The position numbers and the translations under genes are program-made. From assembly GCA_021234155.1 (NCBI GenBank), contig JAJEKV010000027.1, positions 707,109-771,108 of the forward strand: 64,000 nucleotides of DNA, written 5' to 3'. The notes under the pieces were generated by a model that saw nothing but the letters and a program-made list of their open reading frames with translations, was not told the DNA's origin and searched no databases. Source of the DNA: Isoetes taiwanensis. Its lineage: Eukaryota; Streptophyta; Lycopodiopsida; Isoetales; Isoetaceae. Below, in pieces: positions 41,609-51,188 of the stretch; the stretch's first letter is position 1; each line of letters starts with the position of its first letter.

Positions 41609-44600
41609 TTATTGATTGTAGTCCCAAATTTTAGAAATGCACAATTTCCTTGGGTGTTGATATTTGGATACTTCAGCATCATCCAGGTCGAGGTTAAGCT
41701 TGACTTTACAATTCCTCAGATAATCTAGCATGAACAGATTCAGGATTAGGTAATGCTTGATTACAAAAGAGTTTAAAAAAACCATAAGATCCTGAGAATT
41801 TGTCAACTATTATCAATTTGTGAGTCACCATTTTTATGTTTATAAGCAGTAACAGTCAGCTCAATGTCATAAATGACTTGCAATTTAATCCGTAATGTAG
41901 CGTTGGTATGCCTCCCATGCAAACATCTATTTCTATGTTTCCAAATATTCCACAAAGGTGGTGAAAGAAATAGAGTTTTTAAATTTATTATCAGATATAA
42001 GAAAATTGACAATACCCCTTGGTCTGCTGACTTGGAAAACATGTTCAAACCCGGTTCGAAATGTAGACAGTTTAGGACATGAAAAAATATGGCCAATGTC
42101 CTCAATATTATTGCAGAGAAGAGGGCAAGATGGATTTAAGACAGGATTATTAGGGACATTAGCATTGGCAGACGAGAAGTGTCTACGTAAAGTCTCCAGA
42201 TTAGGAATGCTTTTGTTAGCAAGCAACCAGATGAAATAAGATATTTTAGGAGCACAATATGAGTTCCATACATTCTTAAAAAGAGAGATTCCAGTTTCAG
42301 CAGGAATATTCCAGTAAAGACAAGCTTTAGAAATTTGATTGTTATTTGCTAGGAACTTATAAATAAAGGCAACTTTATAAAGATATTTATCTTTGTAATT
42401 CCAATCAATATGAGTTGAGACAGAACCATGCAGACTGTAAGTGGACACCTTATTTAGAATATGCTTAAAGAGAGTCTTGTCTGAAGAGGTACCATTGACC
42501 ATGGCTTTGAATCTTGTCCAAGTAATCCATCTGTCATTAAACCAAATGTCCCCTAATGTTTTAATAGAATAGAATATGATTTTATCGTCCCACGGAGACC
42601 AACCGCCTATGGGACCCAAGTACAAAGAGAGAGCAAGCGACATTACTACCGTGATTAAAACCCTCACCTGAAGGGGTTTCTGGGAAAAACCTTAGTAGCA
42701 ATAAGGATGCCGACATACCGCATGCTTATATACATAATCACAAGTACACCAGGTTAATGCCTCGGACGAGGGGGGCATAACTGAACGTCCGCTATCCATT
42801 ACCTCCGGAGGTAAACATCCCAACAAGCCTACAGAGGCCGTGCTCAGTAGCTCATGCAAGGCCTCGATGGGGCATTAACTAACCGAGCATACCGAGCCCG
42901 ATATGCTCATACGGACAGCCCGGAGGGCGCGACTTTCATCCTCAATGGCTCCGCTGACGCATTGACGACTCGCCCCTCACGCCGCCCCAATCCATCTCCC
43001 CTCCAATGCGGAGGTGGTGTGCACCGTGCTGAATGGAAGCAATCACCCCGCGGCTTTTCATGGGTAGATGGGTGCGTAGTGGTGTTTTTAATGCCACCAA
43101 TGTCTATTTCTTTGTACATTCTAGGATGATTAATTGCCGAGGAGGGACCAAATTAGCTTTAGCCGTATTGAGGGATTCCAAAAATACTCATACCTTTATG
43201 AGCCCGATTAATGGCACTATGGGGAGTAAGTCAGGTGCACATTATTCCAAGATGTAATAAGATTTCTCATTAGAGGAGACGAAGTTGGCAAATGGGTTTA
43301 AGCCTATTAAAGGCGTAAGATGGCAAAGCATGCTCAATTGTAGGATGACCATCTATTGTGCTTCGTTCACCTAATAATAGATAAATTTAGCGCAAGGTTA
43401 TTTTGATTAAGTAAGGCCCTCCAAACATATTTACCGGCTAATGCATAGCCCCGAGTTGAAGGTTTTGCATCCAAGACCTCACGCTTTTTACCCGAGAGAC
43501 ATATTTCCAAATTGACCATATGGTGTTGCCCCAAATGAAGTTTCTAATTATCTTTCAATCTGCAGTAAATGCATTTGGGAGCAAGCAAGGCAGAAGAAAA
43601 ATAAATATGAGAACTTGCTAGCACGTGAAGATGCAATAATTGTTCTCGCACCGCAATTGAAAGACAACTACCATAATTATTTAGCTTCCTTCGATTTTAG
43701 AGACAATAGGAAGCCATAAATCTTTAATTGAAATATCCAAGGCCAAAGGCATTCCTAATAGTGTGGAAGTCCTGATTTACCGGTATGCATTTGATACCTA
43801 AGATATCCGGGCCGATCATTAGCTCCAATAATAACACACTTAGCCATATTAAGGTAGATACCAGATGCTGCACTAAAACCCTTTAGTATCTTGATGAAGA
43901 ATTCAATATTGTTGACATCATTGTGAAGGAAGCTGAATGAATCATCTGCATATTGCAGCATAGTAAGTTGAGAATTATCCCCTGGCATATCTAAGCCTTT
44001 TAGATTACCACAATTTTGATGGTGCATAATGATTTTGGTAAGTTGTTCAGCCATCGTGATAAATGTTATGGAGCCAAAGGACACCCTTGCCTCACCCCTT
44101 TCTGTAAATTAAAGAATTTGCCAGGACTGCCATTGACTAGAATTGCAGATTGAGCACAAGAATTGAGTCCCATGATAAGATCTATAATTTTTGTAGGAAC
44201 ACCTATTTTTCTTAGAGATAGAATCAGAAAATCCCACCTAACAGTGTCAAAAGCTTTGGAAAAATCAAGCTTGAGAAGAACACAATTTTGATTTGAAGCT
44301 CTGGCCCAGTGCAAACCTTCCATAGCAGTAATATAATTATCTAAAATGAACCTGTTGGGAAGGAAAGCAGACTGATGCAAGCTAATATTCTTTTTTTTGC
44401 GAAAATCCTTTGATCCGATTTGTAAGTGGAATTGGTCAAGGAAATTGGTCTCCACTCATTGAACATAGATGGGCTATCTACTTTTGGGATAAGAGAGATA
44501 AGCCCAGAGGAAATAGCAGGGTGAAGGTGATTGTTGAGCCAGAATCCATGAACCATAGATGTAAGATCAAATTTAAATTCCTCCCAAAATTGAAGATAGA

Positions 44601-46050
44601 ATTCTGGAGGTAGGCCATCTGGACCCGGACTTTTACCTTTGGCAAGGGTAGAAGGAGTAGATTTGACTTCATCTTCTGAGGGAGGAAGATCCACATTGGG
44701 AGATAAAGGATCAATGATGTTATCAGGCAATGAGTTTAAGAGATCAATGAATTCTGAAGCAGGAGCATCAGACCAAGGAATATCAGAGCTGGAGGCAAAG
44801 ATATTCGAATATTTAGAATAGAAGAAGTCTGCAATATCTTTAGATGAATCCAAAATATTACCCTGATCATTGGTAATGGATGTAAGCTGACTCTTGAGAA
44901 GTCTATTTTTGGCAATTCTAAAAAAGAATTTGGAGTTGCTACTATCCATTGAAGAGTAAAATTTCACTTTAGACCTAATGGCTGCACTTTGGCCTCAAAA
45001 TCCTCAATGTTTTTAATTGATTGCTCTAGAGCACTTTCTTGCAAGTGTAAATCAGAATTTAGAGGGTCTCCATTGGAGATTTAGCCCCGATAGTTTGAAT
45101 TTGCATAAGGTAGTTCATCTTTTCAGCTCTCTTTCTCTTCCAATCAGATCTGGACCATTGCTTAATCCAAGATTTGGTTGATTTGACTTTGGCATAGAAG
45201 TCTTTCATAGAAGAGGCAGCTCTAATTCTGGGAAGATTGGCATAAAAAGATTTAAATTCTCTACAGAATTTATCATTGCTGAGCAAGGAACAATTAAATT
45301 TAAAAGGAATATTCCCTGACCTCTTAATAGATAGGAGATGTTTAGTTTCAAGAAATTGAGGCTGATGATCCGAGACTGAAGTTTTCTCATAACTGAAAAC
45401 AATACAATTATCCCAGAAATCATGACTAGAATTGTTTATATAAAATCTGTCTAGAGCACAAAAGACTCTGGAATTCCCCTTTTGCTTATTAGACCATGTA
45501 AATTTAGCAGTGGAAGAGGGAATATGAGTAAATAAGAAGGTATCAAGAAGACTTCCCCAATTTAATTTCTCTGTCACAGACATATTGATATTTTTCCCCA
45601 CCTTAAGGTCCCAGGTTGGGGTATTATTGAAATCTCCAGCCAAAATCCAGGATATAGAATTATGGTTAAGTAGCCAAGTTTTGATATCAAGCCAAAGCTT
45701 TTCTCTTTCTTTGGAGCTTGTGGAAGCATAAATATTTATTATGCCAAATTGGGAATCATTATGATTAAAAATCACAGCCTGCCAACACTTACAAGGACTG
45801 TTATAGACCAAACTATGACTAATATTCTTCCAAATAATTATTAGACCACCAGAGGTCATATAGTGGCATCAATCCATAAGGAGGAGAAACCAGGGCCTAT
45901 CCAATTTGCTAAGTTAGAGCATTCGAAATTTGGGAGTCTAAGCTCTTGGAGTAGAATAATATCTGCATGATAATCCCTAATTTGAGAAATAGCCCTTCTC
46001 CTTTTAACAGGCCCTTTGATTCCCCTAAAATTCCATGTCATAATCTTCAT
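41609..46050 (-). pseudogene. LINE ORF2: endonuclease, reverse transcriptase and zinc-binding domain, frameshifted
   Basis: Read on the minus strand, the start MKIMTWNFRGIKG lies 31 bases after the ORF1 stop. The endonuclease (46050-45059) shows NFRG, LLQE, LAGDFNN and VSDHQP, the catalytic signatures of the APE family. The reverse transcriptase (44967-43500) shows GKSPGPDG, WRPISL, HQSAFLPNR, LDFSKAFDTV, RQGCPLAP and LQYADD, then GMPL and WLPIVSKIEG. The zinc-binding domain (42480-42060) shows WNSYCAPKISYFIWLL and CPLL-C...H-x-F-x-x-C, followed by WKHRNRC. Frameshifts or stops lie near 45856, 44395 (a T-run), 44079 and between 43500 and 43130. The 468-bp insertion splits the linker before the zinc-binding domain. 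The protein would nick target DNA and reverse-transcribe the element's RNA; this copy cannot make it. Confidence 0.9.
42652..43133. mobile_element. 468-bp insertion in LINE ORF2 flanked by TGATTAA
   Basis: TGATTAA occurs at 42652-42658 and 43127-43133, and the 468 bases between them (42659-43126) do not belong to the LINE: the reverse-transcriptase linker reads FWNPSIRL just before and resumes at YLGPIGGW just after. The insert is far more GC-rich than the LINE and has no long frame and no clear inverted termini (AACCCTCACC against TCCTAGAATG). A TATATA word lies near 42728. A solo LTR or a short non-autonomous element are the options; I cannot decide. Confidence 0.65.
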
Positions 46051-46262
46051 GGCATAAGATTAAAGACAAGGAAAGCAAGGTCACTAAATGTATTTTCTAG
46101 ATTGGCTTCTAGTGGATCTTTTAGATTGATGTCTAGTGTTGGAAGCTGGGGTGTCTAATATGGAGACAGTTTTCCTCATGTTAATCCCTTTCTTGCCAGG
46201 TTTAGCAATTTTCTGCTTTGATGTGCTTGGAGCAGAGAAAGATAAAAAGTTATCATCATCCC

Positions 46263-46272
46263 AATGAGTTGC
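46263..46272. repeat. Left 10-bp target duplication of the Mutator-like element (AATGAGTTGC)
   Basis: Exact match to 47339-47348. Nine to eleven bases is typical of the Mutator superfamily. Confidence 0.88.
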
Positions 46273-47338
46273 GGTGCTTCGATCGGCTCCCAAAATTGAG
46301 TTCGGGAGCCAGCTGGGTTCGCCCAAGCGAACCCAGAAAATTCGCTTAAGCGAACCCACGGATGTTGATGGCAGACTGAGGTGGCGCTACCCACCGGGTT
46401 AAGCTTACTTAACCCGAACCCGGTTAAGCCTAGAGGCTTCGATTCTCCATAAATTCATACACAAGGAGTTTTCTTTTTATTATCCGCATAGAAACCAAGC
46501 AATCCTACAATATGAGGAGAGTTGATCTTGCCTCCAATGATAGAAACCTCGTTTTGGAACTCTCTTTCACCACCTTGTAAGTCAGATCAAATCTTTAACA
46601 AGCAATTTCTTGACCATTTTTTCGTAATCCCTTTGAAAACGGGAACCAAATCCACCTTGTCCAAGCTTTACGGCATCATAAAACCGCAGTGGCCTTTTTT
46701 TAGTCAGTCGTAGAAGAAAATTTATGAAGCTTTTAGAGAAGGAACCACATCATGGGGCTCGCGTTTTATGAGCTCTAAGCCTTCGTGAAGAAAAAGAAGC
46801 ACAAAACAAGCGGAATAACGGCAGGCTCTCCTCCTCCTATGGCCAATCCCAAAACCAAGCTCGCTCTATGGTCACGGAAGAAGATCCAGTTCGATTTGTG
46901 CCCTAGATTCAACCTTGTGAGAAAAAGCATGGTGGGTCGGTATTTTTCCTGGCTATGGCGAGGTCGGGCATTGGGCCTACCGTAAGCCTCGATGGCATGA
47001 TCCTGCACAAAACCTTCAAAATCTCATACTATTTTAACCATGCATGAATCATCCGGTCGTGCCCTTGATTCGACCAGCAATCAGTGCTCCGTGCTGCGGA
47101 TCCTTTGCTCGAGAAAAGAGGGCGTAAAACGAGGATCTCCATACGCCAGTGGGCGGACCACAGTTGCTGGGCGTTCGCACGCCCTCCTTATTTAACCACT
47201 GGTTCGCTTTGGGCTTAACCCGGTGGGTAGCCCACCCTCCACCGTCAACATAACGGGTTCGCTGGCGAACTCCAGGGGGGTCGCTTGGCAACCCGCTTAG
47301 GCGGTTTGACCCAATTCCGGGAGCCAATAAAGCGGGCG
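46273..47338 (-). mobile_element. Pack-MULE-like element inside LINE ORF1, with captured receptor-kinase sequence
   Basis: The insert is flanked by an exact 10-bp duplication (AATGAGTTGC) and has long, diverged terminal inverted repeats of about 130 bp (46273-46404 and 47213-47338). Both arms contain GGCTCCC followed by AATTG, TTCGC-AAGCGAACCC, ATGTTGA and GCTACCCACCGGGTTAAGC. Long inverted repeats with a 9-11 bp duplication identify Mutator-like elements. There is no transposase. The core instead holds part of a receptor-like kinase gene, which makes this a Pack-MULE. Excising the element plus one target copy rejoins ORF1 of the LINE in frame (ALATH to WDDDN), proving it arrived after the LINE. 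The arms carry small palindromes such as TTCGCTTAAGCGAA at 46341. Confidence 0.9.
46436..46985 (-). pseudogene. Captured receptor-like kinase fragment (membrane span and kinase N-lobe)
   Basis: On the minus strand a hydrophobic, single-span segment SLVLGLAIGGGEPAVIPLVL with FFFF (46985-46775) is followed, after a stop and frame changes, by GPLRFYDAVKLGQGGFGS (46695-46640), the ATP-binding glycine loop of a plant receptor kinase. Then come FKGITK, LQGGERE-type sequence, EVSIIGG-like and HIVGLLGFY in broken frames, and LLVYEFMENRS-like sequence near 46440. The order span, juxtamembrane, glycine loop, alpha-C region and hinge matches receptor-like kinases. The catalytic HRD and DFG parts are absent. 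Several frameshifts and stops make it non-coding. The source gene is not in this window. Confidence 0.8.
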
Positions 47339-47348
47339 AATGAGTTGC
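47339..47348. repeat. Right 10-bp target duplication of the Mutator-like element
   Basis: AATGAGTTGC, identical to 46263-46272. Confidence 0.88.
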
Positions 47349-49920
47349 CAAAGCAGAGATGACATTTTCATTGTTGTTTTCTTTCTCACTAGAATCAAAG
47401 TCATTAGAGTGAGAGCAGGTCCAGAATTTAGATTGGCAGCAAGAGTGGTTAATTCCTTGGGGTGTCACCACAGAATTATTATTAATTTCAATCAAACAAG
47501 GAGATAGGTTTAGATATTGCCTGGAATGTGTGTCCCCTGCCACCATTTCATCTCGAGCATGTGAATGAGTTGAGATCTGATCTGAGCAATTTTGAGAGAA
47601 TACTTTTAAATCTGACTTATTCCCTTCTGTTATGCTATCCAAATTGCTTTTCACCATTTGATCTAACTCCAATATTCCACTATCCATATTACTGACCTTA
47701 TGACCAACCTGGACAATCTCATCTTCCACTTGTAACTCAGAAAGTTGAATAGCAATTTTTCAGAAATGGGATTGTGAGGAAGCGAAAATATAGGGGATGT
47801 ATAAGGAGATAGATCAATTAAAGGGATAGGAGATTGCAACGAGTGTTCATGTGGGGGAGGAATACAAGTTTTGGGGGGTGATTTAGGTAAGGCCAATGCA
47901 AAAGTAGAATGGTTATTATTGGCAGTTTTTGGCTCTTCAATATCTGCACAATTCTCACCATTTGTGTCAGTCAAAACCTTAAATCTATTAGAGCATATTA
48001 CCTTGTCTGAGGAGGCATCATTGTTGACTGCCATTTTGCAGCTATAAGGATGATCTTTGACAATTTCCTGAGCAGTTGCTATTTTGAAAGGTGGTTGGAC
48101 CACAGAAATATCCAAGATATTTTTATTTTCCATAATTAATAACTCCTCACCCTTTTTCTTTTGAGCCACAGGAGAGTTGATCTTAATACCATGCTGAGTT
48201 TTCTTGGAAGATCTCTGCAATTCTTTAAGTACTGTCCTGTTGTTAAGAACTGCATTTGCCTTAGAGTCTTCAAGGATATTATTTAGAGTCTTGTGCAAAT
48301 CGAAATGCATTGGAGTTTTCCCTTTGGCAATCCATTTATGATCATTGTTCTCATTTGCTTTAACCTGATTGCCAGAAGTCTTGGGATTTGTATGCTAGAA
48401 GAACTCCCCCCTATTTAGAATTTTGATCCCACCAGACATTTGAAATGTGTCATTAAGAACTTCTGAGGAATCTAATTCTTGTGAAGCAATTCTCTGCCTT
48501 TGTTGCCTCCTCTTTTCAATTCTTCTTTTACTCCCATTAGATTTAATCCAAACTGACTGATTCTTATAATTTTGGCCAGCATGTTTTTGATAAACTAGTT
48601 CATGACTTCCAGAATTTAAAGTCCTGATATCTTTCTTGACCTCCATTGGAATCTTAGCTGAATAATCCACAACTCCATCTCCAATTGCAGATATTGCAGA
48701 ATTTTTTGGAACTTGTCCAACAAAGTATTGACAAGTATTTGAAAAAAAATGTCTTGAGTTGCAGGTTGGGCAGAAGGTAGGCAAACCAATCCATCTCAAC
48801 TGAAGTTTAATTTCTTTGCCAAAGAAATCTAACATAGGAATGGATGTGGGAACATGCTTGGAGATGTCCAATTGGATATAGCATTTGGGAGCCTTATATG
48901 GAGAATATTCTGTAGATATATATGTTCCAATGGTATTGAAAATGATAGAGAAACAATCCTCATTCCAGTAAATAGGGCTAAGGTCACTCATACTGACCGA
49001 GGCAATATAAAATTTACCAAAGTCATTAAATGATAGCTTAGGGTCCCATTTGATGAACACCAACTGGAAAGTTTCAAAGGTCGATCTGGCTGTTTTTAAA
49101 AGGAAATTGGCAGTTCGAGAATTGACACATTCAGCCAAAAGGTAGGGATAATTAAGCCAGAAAATTGAATTGATAATGACACCTTTATTAAGCTTCTGAA
49201 GATGGTCCCATAGTTTATCCAATTTAATCCCAACTTTATCAACACAGATTATAACAGCAGTTGAAGATAAAGAGCTAATTATTGATGCTATTAGAGGGGA
49301 ATCAAGTTTGATACCTCAACAAATGTAACATTGGCCGAGTTCGAATTTGCAAGTTGTTGAATTCTTCAAACAAATTACCGGTCCGAAGAACGGGTTAGGT
49401 GCCTTGGATTTCCATATGGAATAGGAACCCCTTCAAAGATTAAGAGTGTGGAATGCCATTGGGACCCTGGATCCTTGAAAGATTATCCCGTAATGGAACA
49501 TCCGTGGATAGGTGGTGCATATCTTTGGAAAGAAAGTTTAAATCAGAAAAATCTCCAAATTTGAGAACACTAGAAGGATTCTGGTGATAAAAACTTAACT
49601 GGGCAAGAAGATCGGAATGCTTTGATGAAGAAAGGAGCATAAACTTGTGAAGAAGAATGAGGGAATTTGCGTTTAGGTTTTTTGAAGTATTCGAGTTTTT
49701 TTGGGTATAAGTTTTTTGGACAATTTGTGACATTTTGGAAAAGTTCAGGTAGAAACAGCAGAAGGACAAAAACAGGAAAAGGAAGGGGCAAAGGAAGATA
49801 AGAAGAAGAATTTTGAAGATCCTAAGGCAAAGAAATTAAATTACAGTAAAGAGAAATTTGGAATTTAAGGTAAAACCCAAAACCATACCATTCCAAGCCA
49901 AATCAATTTAGGGCACGGAT

Positions 49921-50457: not shown

Positions 50458-51188
50458 CACCATAAGTATTTGATGATGAACAAAGCTTGGGGAGGCAGTT
50501 TACAGCCATTTTTAAGCCCCGGGGGGTTCACCTAGATTATGCGGTATGAAACATGTGAGTGCACCAAATGGGTTTTTTTATTGCCTCTCTAGTACCGTAT
50601 ACATAAGAAAAATATAAGGTTCTTATAGTTTGAATGTCATACGGATACCAGAGGGAGTGTGGTGGCGCCAGTGTTCGATTCGTATTCATATTATAAGGGT
50701 CTGTCATTTTTGGTGAGCTTCTACTGTTGGGGATTCTGTGATAATATGATATGACTATGATACTAGGGCTGCCTGACCGCTGATAATTGGGGCCATCTGG
50801 GCCCTTGATAATTCCACGTGTCGATATGAGCGGCTGGGATTGGTTGGGACATTAACGTGGGTATCGTTGGTGTCGTGCAGGTACCAGACATTAGGCCGAA
50901 GGGAGAGATCTAACTGCGGAGTTTGTGTTTGGATTCTATTTGTGTCTGGTAGTTGAACCAGCTTGCCGGGCAGCAGTGGATGGAGCCGGGCAGCAGAGCA
51001 TAGTTGTAGATGTGGAGTTTTGGATGGTCGAACCTGGTATGTGTTTTTTAGATTTCTCTTCTGTAGGTGCCGTTCACCTCTATTTTGCTCCGACTAGCAG
51101 AGATTTGGGTCGAACTTAGATACACAGCCCTTCTATCACTGCCGTCCATATCCCGTTTTTGTAGCTTGCAGGGGCAAAGCTTCCGAAA
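50458..51188 (+). promoter_or_regulatory. Upstream region of the cyclin pseudogene, with one possible MSA core
   Basis: About 730 bp separate the LINE from the cyclin start codon. Plant B-type cyclins are driven in G2/M by MYB3R factors at MSA elements with an AACGG core. One AACGG core (as CCGTT, in GTGCCGTTCACC) lies at 51070-51074, 115 bp before the ATG. A single five-base match is weak. I see no clear TATA box. The LINE replaced whatever lay further upstream. Confidence 0.3.

Follow-up and report, generated by a model that had tools for sequence, protein, structure and literature searches.

Within the window, a stretch of 64,000 nucleotides from the genome of Isoetes taiwanensis (C1031:707109-771108; genome of 1.66 Gb in 1110 contigs), ORF1 of a LINE is interrupted by DNA that contains part of a receptor-like kinase gene, which raises the question of how a piece of a cellular gene came to lie there. 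An earlier note, made from the sequence alone, had read the interruption as a Pack-MULE. That reading is supported by ends shared among elements of varied cargo, by a donor gene and by LINE loci that have neither arms nor cargo, and the element is almost certainly a non-autonomous Mutator-like element (Pack-MULE) carrying a receptor-kinase gene fragment. Its features, in window coordinates, are as follows.

45462 to 46271, minus strand: LINE on the low-coordinate side of the insertion, the stretch tested (empty-site alignments)
46263 to 46271, no strand: left copy of the target-site duplication AATGAGTTG, a site uninterrupted in seven LINE relatives
46272 to 47338, no strand: whole element, 1067 bp, with ends like CGGTGCTTCGATCGGCTCCC ... 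GGGAGCCAATAAAGCGGGCG that are common to the family
46282 to 46404, no strand: left terminal inverted repeat, the outermost 10 bp pairing only loosely
46396 to 46415, no strand: GGGTTAAGCTTACTTAACCC, from comparison with sister copies, eight of 11 of which read TTCGCCCAAGCGAACC at the same place
46434 to 47149, minus strand: captured receptor-like kinase gene fragment, 88.8% identical to the donor at L013
46642 to 46668, minus strand: glycine-loop motif KLGQGGFGS, from the sequence and matches to the donor protein
47213 to 47328, no strand: right terminal inverted repeat, from the arm alignment
47339 to 47347, no strand: right copy of the target-site duplication AATGAGTTG
47348 to 48400, minus strand: LINE ORF1 region on the high-coordinate side, the stretch tested (empty-site alignments)

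The borders of the element are framed by an exact direct repeat, AATGAGTTGC, at 46263-46272 and 47339-47348. The repeat had been described as a 10-bp target duplication; it is exact, but the duplication is the 9-bp AATGAGTTG, since the elements of family members start with C (CGGTGCTTCG...), so that the first C is part of the element and the tenth base matches by chance. Elsewhere in the family, the sequence is CGGTGCTTCGATCGGCTCCC at the left end and GGGAGCCAATAAAGYGGGCG at the right. The inverted repeats, put at about 130 bp in the earlier note, were recovered as arms of 116-123 bp that align with 72% identity over 128 columns, at a score of 57, whereas 300 mononucleotide shuffles reached no more than 26. 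Across 25 other elements, arm length ranges from 20-22 bp (L025, L027) to about 310 bp (L042); arms of 100-500 bp are characteristic of Mutator-like elements. The arm motif GGGTTAAGC, which had been offered as a sequence by which to search for the family, probably does not represent the family: judged by the eight of 11 sister copies, it is more likely a deviant or corrupted reading. No transposase was seen between the arms of the window element, as had been stated, the cargo there being the donor fragment.

The host is a LINE, as indicated by RVT_1 at 44069-44455 (E 1.1e-14), zf-RVT at 41936-42691 (E 3.6e-6) and weaker matches to an endonuclease domain and DUF4283, and the insertion interrupts its ORF1 on the minus strand. 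The empty-site query joined 810 bp from the left flank to 1053 bp from the right, with the duplication included once. Eight other LINE loci were fetched, the rest of the LINE matches being left out; L055 stops before the junction, and the seven that cover it (L054, L056-L060 and L066) are all uninterrupted, so that the arms and kinase region are not a continuous part of these LINE copies. When the flanks are joined with one duplication, a 199-aa frame spans the junction on the minus strand, and removal of the element thus re-creates ORF1, as the earlier note had it. From the empty sites and the restored frame it follows that the element is younger than the host LINE copy. Beyond the part shared with other LINEs, window positions 50518-50765 (about 248 bp) hold a high-copy repeat found at 94-99% identity at many of the 40 places listed.

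The parental receptor kinase, for which a search had been proposed, was found at L013 (C1035:13050599-13053489) and has an open frame. Among the 48 matches listed, which came from scoring the best 40 of 66 candidates, the full 2891-bp donor query is matched by its own locus only. Counted from the first ATG, at L013:4383, its product is 866 aa long, with a Pfam kinase match in two stretches (E 1.2e-36); BAK1 is the best solved relative of the protein, which presumably resembles the Arabidopsis At4g25390/At2g45590 group. Family arms are absent from the donor locus. The captured 730 bp (L013:4224-4953) run from 159 bp upstream of the ATG through codon 190 and thereby comprise the 5′ leader, start codon, membrane span and kinase N-lobe, stopping short of the catalytic loop. 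Over these 730 bp, identity to the donor is 98.8% in L005, 96.0% in L012, 88.8% in the window and 88.0-94.1% in the remaining nine copies. The captured DNA is 45.3% GC compared with 43.6% (the donor's other coding part) and 43.2%, figures that concern one cargo only. At the left junction of L005, about 2 bp past the matched part are common to element and donor.

Three matches to the donor protein extend over 46998-46433 of the window, on the minus strand; the strongest is at 46937-46470 (E 3.6e-38), and they lie in three alternating frames with stops. The earlier description of a kinase fragment with a membrane span therefore stands as to receptor-kinase content and the KLGQGGFGS motif, but the span is only partly legible and there is no open frame; the window cargo is unreadable as protein. 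A 236-aa ORF that extends into the element gave no kinase match in a Pfam scan. The cleanest copy, L005, has a 137-aa stop-to-stop frame. Fragments of the donor's 5′ region also lie dispersed at L014:3922-4356 and L061-L065, at 75-97% identity, without family arms and in mixed contexts, as if another element type had captured this region too.

The same cargo is present in at least 12 copies (L001-L012) at nine sites, three pairs of copies having common flanks (100% identical in L006/L007, 96.0 and 94.5% in L002/L011, 94.1 and 91.9% in L005/L010). These counts are lower bounds, as the DNA search scored 40 of 529 candidates, giving 66 matches, and matches to arms alone (C907:50800319, C1048, C1026, C1007, C1072) were left out. 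A duplication of 9-10 bp accompanies seven of the nine sites, those of L003 and L004 being counted by inspection of the ends; a clear duplication was not found at L009, L010 and L012. The L005 copy (L005:1007-3023) lies inside a retrotransposon polyprotein, between an integrase zinc-binding domain (E 2e-19) and RNase H (E 1.2e-29).

The family is considerably larger than this one cargo. The 20-bp ends have 219 and 390 exact matches in the genome, and reversed controls have 0. From the first 100 places of each set, 25 same-strand pairs were picked by eye, of which 20 are bounded by an exact 9-bp duplication, four by an exact 10-bp duplication and the last (L027) by a 9-bp duplication with one mismatch; at least one further pair (C905:185601-192234) was left out of the 25. 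Three of the pairs (L035, L047 and L048) have one duplication, ACCTTGGCA, hence the pairs are not 25 independent sites, and L024, for which only the left end was found, enters no count. Among L016-L023, which were found by similarity and not by pattern, duplications are present in all eight. Left and right ends are not alike in their outermost 13 bp, and the left form is kept in 13 of the 20 elements not selected by pattern (L001-L012 and L016-L023), with one change in L016; the deviants are L003 and L007-L012.

Same ends with different cargo had been named as what a Pack-MULE family should display, and this was found: the cores of 29 elements (the window element, L016-L023 and L030-L049) fall into about 24 cargo groups when sharing is set at 150 bp or more at E 1e-10. 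Shared cores are confined to L020/L021, L022/L023 (partial), L030/L046 and L039/L047/L048. Pfam matches above cut-off were obtained for four of 13 short elements, namely a kinase in L022, a sugar-binding glycosyltransferase domain in L016, exostosin in L023 and leucine-rich repeats in L043; the other nine gave none in the one or two ORFs scanned per element. Some family elements look like chimeras, judging from L022 and L023, which have one half in common (97.5% over 684 bp) and the other half different. L035, L047 and L048 sit in a tandem minisatellite with ACCTTGGCA as target. Exchange of cargo in situ was considered for these three on account of the joint duplication and rejected, as the flanks are tandem minisatellite and L047 and L048 stem from duplication of one locus; L035 is most readily explained by an independent insertion in a similar repeat.

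A candidate for the mobilising enzyme is found in longer members of the family. Of five long members with both exact ends, four (L026-L029) contain tblastn matches to one protein, a relative of a MULE-like transposase, and L025 has none among the tblastn places; the search scored 114 of 816 candidates and gave 117 matches. The transposase frames of the long members are broken, none with an unbroken frame having been seen, and the ORFs of L026 and L029 gave no MULE match in Pfam. The relative L051 matches PF10551 (MULE) at E 3.4e-5 and 24.6 bits, below the cut-off of 27.6. Among eight further relatives picked for few or no stops, five match PF10551 at E 6.3e-5 to 1.4e-4, L074 does so at 0.017, and L068 and L071 have no match. 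When a profile of seven relatives, with L026 and L029 left out, was compared by hhalign with eight PF10551-positive sequences of the same genome, the two aligned over 85 columns at a probability of 93.8% (E 1.8e-7). A search of solved structures with the transposase gave four weak matches, to unrelated dehydratases (E 0.15 to 0.3). On these sequence comparisons, the protein in the long members is here taken to be a putative divergent MULE transposase, and the ends common to long and small elements suggest that the enzyme of the larger relatives is probably supplied in trans to the small ones. Many of the transposase copies switch frame near query residue 180; programmed frameshifting or an intron was also considered, and sequence error or decay is enough to account for the change.

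Pack-MULEs of rice, tomato, maize and Arabidopsis are described, in the accessible parts of two papers, as non-autonomous elements with long inverted ends, duplications of 9-11 bp and captured gene fragments (PMC3310237, PMC4858842). The window element is like them in being non-autonomous and in having long inverted ends, a duplication and a captured fragment of a cellular gene, whereas the outermost 13 bp of its family differ between left and right, although each form recurs within the family. The reported GC preference of rice Pack-MULEs is not evident in the window cargo, which is a single cargo taken from the 5′ region of a gene. As with the PM-ZIBP Pack-MULEs of tomato, one captured fragment occurs in several copies with different 9-10 bp duplications, as far as the available portion of that study goes (PMC3310237); tandem ends occur in PM-ZIBP, whereas those of the window element are single and its cargo comes from a receptor kinase. 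The long members L026-L029 resemble autonomous MULE or MuDR-like elements in combining the family ends with a relative of the MULE transposase domain, and differ from them in that the domain does not reach the Pfam cut-off and the observed frames are interrupted. Neither the kinase cargo nor the family was found in the portions of the Pack-MULE literature searched, and both may still be published. What is described here is a well-delimited family of an already known kind of element.

Other accounts of the interruption have to be set against these observations. The fragment lies within LINE ORF1 on the same strand, as a part of the LINE or a processed pseudogene might, yet there is virtually no chance that it is either, as it is absent from all seven covering LINE loci, is bounded by inverted ends and a 9-bp duplication, has sister copies elsewhere and includes DNA upstream of the start codon. 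The weak match of the transposase to PF10551 leaves a slight opening for another class of DNA transposon such as hAT or Helitron. Such an assignment is highly improbable, because the transposase relatives align, profile against profile, with PF10551-positive sequences from this genome and the element has both a target-site duplication and inverted ends, of which a Helitron has neither; moreover, duplications of 9-10 bp and arms of about 100-200 bp fit the definition of MULEs in the accessible part of PMC3310237. A leader, start codon, membrane span and N-lobe, together with the 137-aa frame of L005, are what a working chimeric gene might be built from, and the element could alternatively act as a regulator of the donor kinase, for example via small RNAs. 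There is little chance of a function of this kind, given that the window copy is frame-broken and that the captured part stops at codon 190, short of the catalytic loop.

On the Pack-MULE reading, a non-autonomous element with long inverted ends would have taken up about 730 bp from one receptor-like kinase gene, possibly during repair synthesis, and would then have been amplified to the 12 or more assembled copies at nine sites. One copy would have entered ORF1 of an already resident LINE, giving rise to the 9-bp duplication, presumably through cut-and-paste transposition by a DDE transposase acting in trans, for which the probable source is larger relatives that combine these ends with a MULE-like transposase. 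The copies may have been silenced by CHG methylation.

There remains the matter of when this took place, as the copies are apparently 10-15% divergent. Very probably the divergence consists mostly of base-calling errors in and around methylated positions, chiefly CHG sites, with capture and spread being recent and the copies probably silenced by methylation. In a comparison of the 12 copies with the donor, in which long deletions were left unmasked (raising the rates of L009 and L012), 236 of 348 CWG site-copies differ (68%), as do 81 of 216 CG site-copies away from CWG, against 3.4% of positions not beside CWG or CG. Among the 32 trinucleotide classes the highest rank belongs to CAG/CTG and the next to CCG/CGG; outside CWG, the reversed motif GWC is no higher than background. 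None of 727 circular shifts of the CWG mask reaches the observed contrast; the largest comes close (0.178 against 0.180), as expected of a one-base shift that mostly overlaps the mask. L012 has almost no CWG effect. The changed positions comprise 267 deleted, 159 inserted, 127 transversions, 102 C>T/G>A and 100 A>G/T>C, a spectrum in which over half are indels and which is not that of deamination.

Comparisons between copies give a similar picture. CWG columns differ more than the non-CHG rest in seven of seven element pairs, at the following rates (CWG against non-CHG rest).

L006/L007: 0.345 against 0.093
L002/L011: 0.331 against 0.109
L005/L010: 0.245 against 0.058
L047/L048: 0.258 against 0.075
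L020/L021: 0.261 against 0.071
L030/L046: 0.187 against 0.055
L022/L023: 0.067 against 0.009

In the flanks, the corresponding rates are 0.178 and 0.275 against 0.008 for L002/L011, and 0.137 and 0.268 against 0.038 and 0.025 for L005/L010. Disagreement at CHG sites thus reaches beyond the kinase cargo, being seen in the L002/L011 flanks, in L047/L048 and in L020/L021. The CHG sites are not the whole account, since 9.3% of the non-CHG columns of L006/L007 are discordant as well; the control motif GWC is likewise elevated in L002/L011 (0.203 against 0.109). In the LINE comparisons, the rates are 0.115 to 0.240 for CWG, 0.112 to 0.158 for the rest and 0.176 to 0.241 for the GWC control, so that CWG has no clear excess over control motifs; L066, in which three of 144 positions near CWG and eight of 939 others differ, leaves this unaltered.

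The differences between copies could instead be real mutations, accumulated in old copies by ordinary mutation and by deamination, methylated cytosine being mutable. The apparent divergence of 10-15% and the differences of L006/L007 away from CHG would suit such an origin, which is nevertheless decidedly improbable: the spectrum is unlike deamination, the flanks of L006 and L007 are identical over 995 bp around elements that are about 15% different, the L002/L011 flanks differ by 0.8% away from CHG compared with 18-28% at CWG, and L066, the empty LINE locus closest to the host among those fetched, matches it at 99.0% over 1083 bp. The scrambling centred on CHG might also be biological, the plant mutating methylated extra copies of a captured gene in a repeat-directed manner, with indels; we know of no such process from plants, and this is scarcely credible. 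The preferred explanation remains base-calling error. The identical flanks of L006 and L007 point to error whatever the motif (the elements themselves being about 85% identical), whereas we infer the CHG specificity of the error and that the assembly rests on such reads. Plant methylation is given as a likely cause of lower nanopore accuracy in the accessible part of one study (PMC9749173), methylation-caused errors in base reads appear in what is available of another (PMC7501810), and the internal parts of MULEs are methylated in CG, CHG and CHH according to the portion seen of a third (PMC4858842). In the portions searched of the literature on CHG and nanopore base-calling, no description of CHG-specific consensus errors was found, and one may still be published.

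The analysis documents a sizeable Pack-MULE family, with a donor, an empty site and likely helpers, in one plant genome. Its most useful addition is a warning that some repeats of the assembly appear to carry errors that cluster at CHG sites. As these disrupt frames and make copies look older than they are, the frames, arms and divergence of these repeats need checking. Conversely, disagreement between copies at CHG sites may serve as a crude map of methylated repeats.
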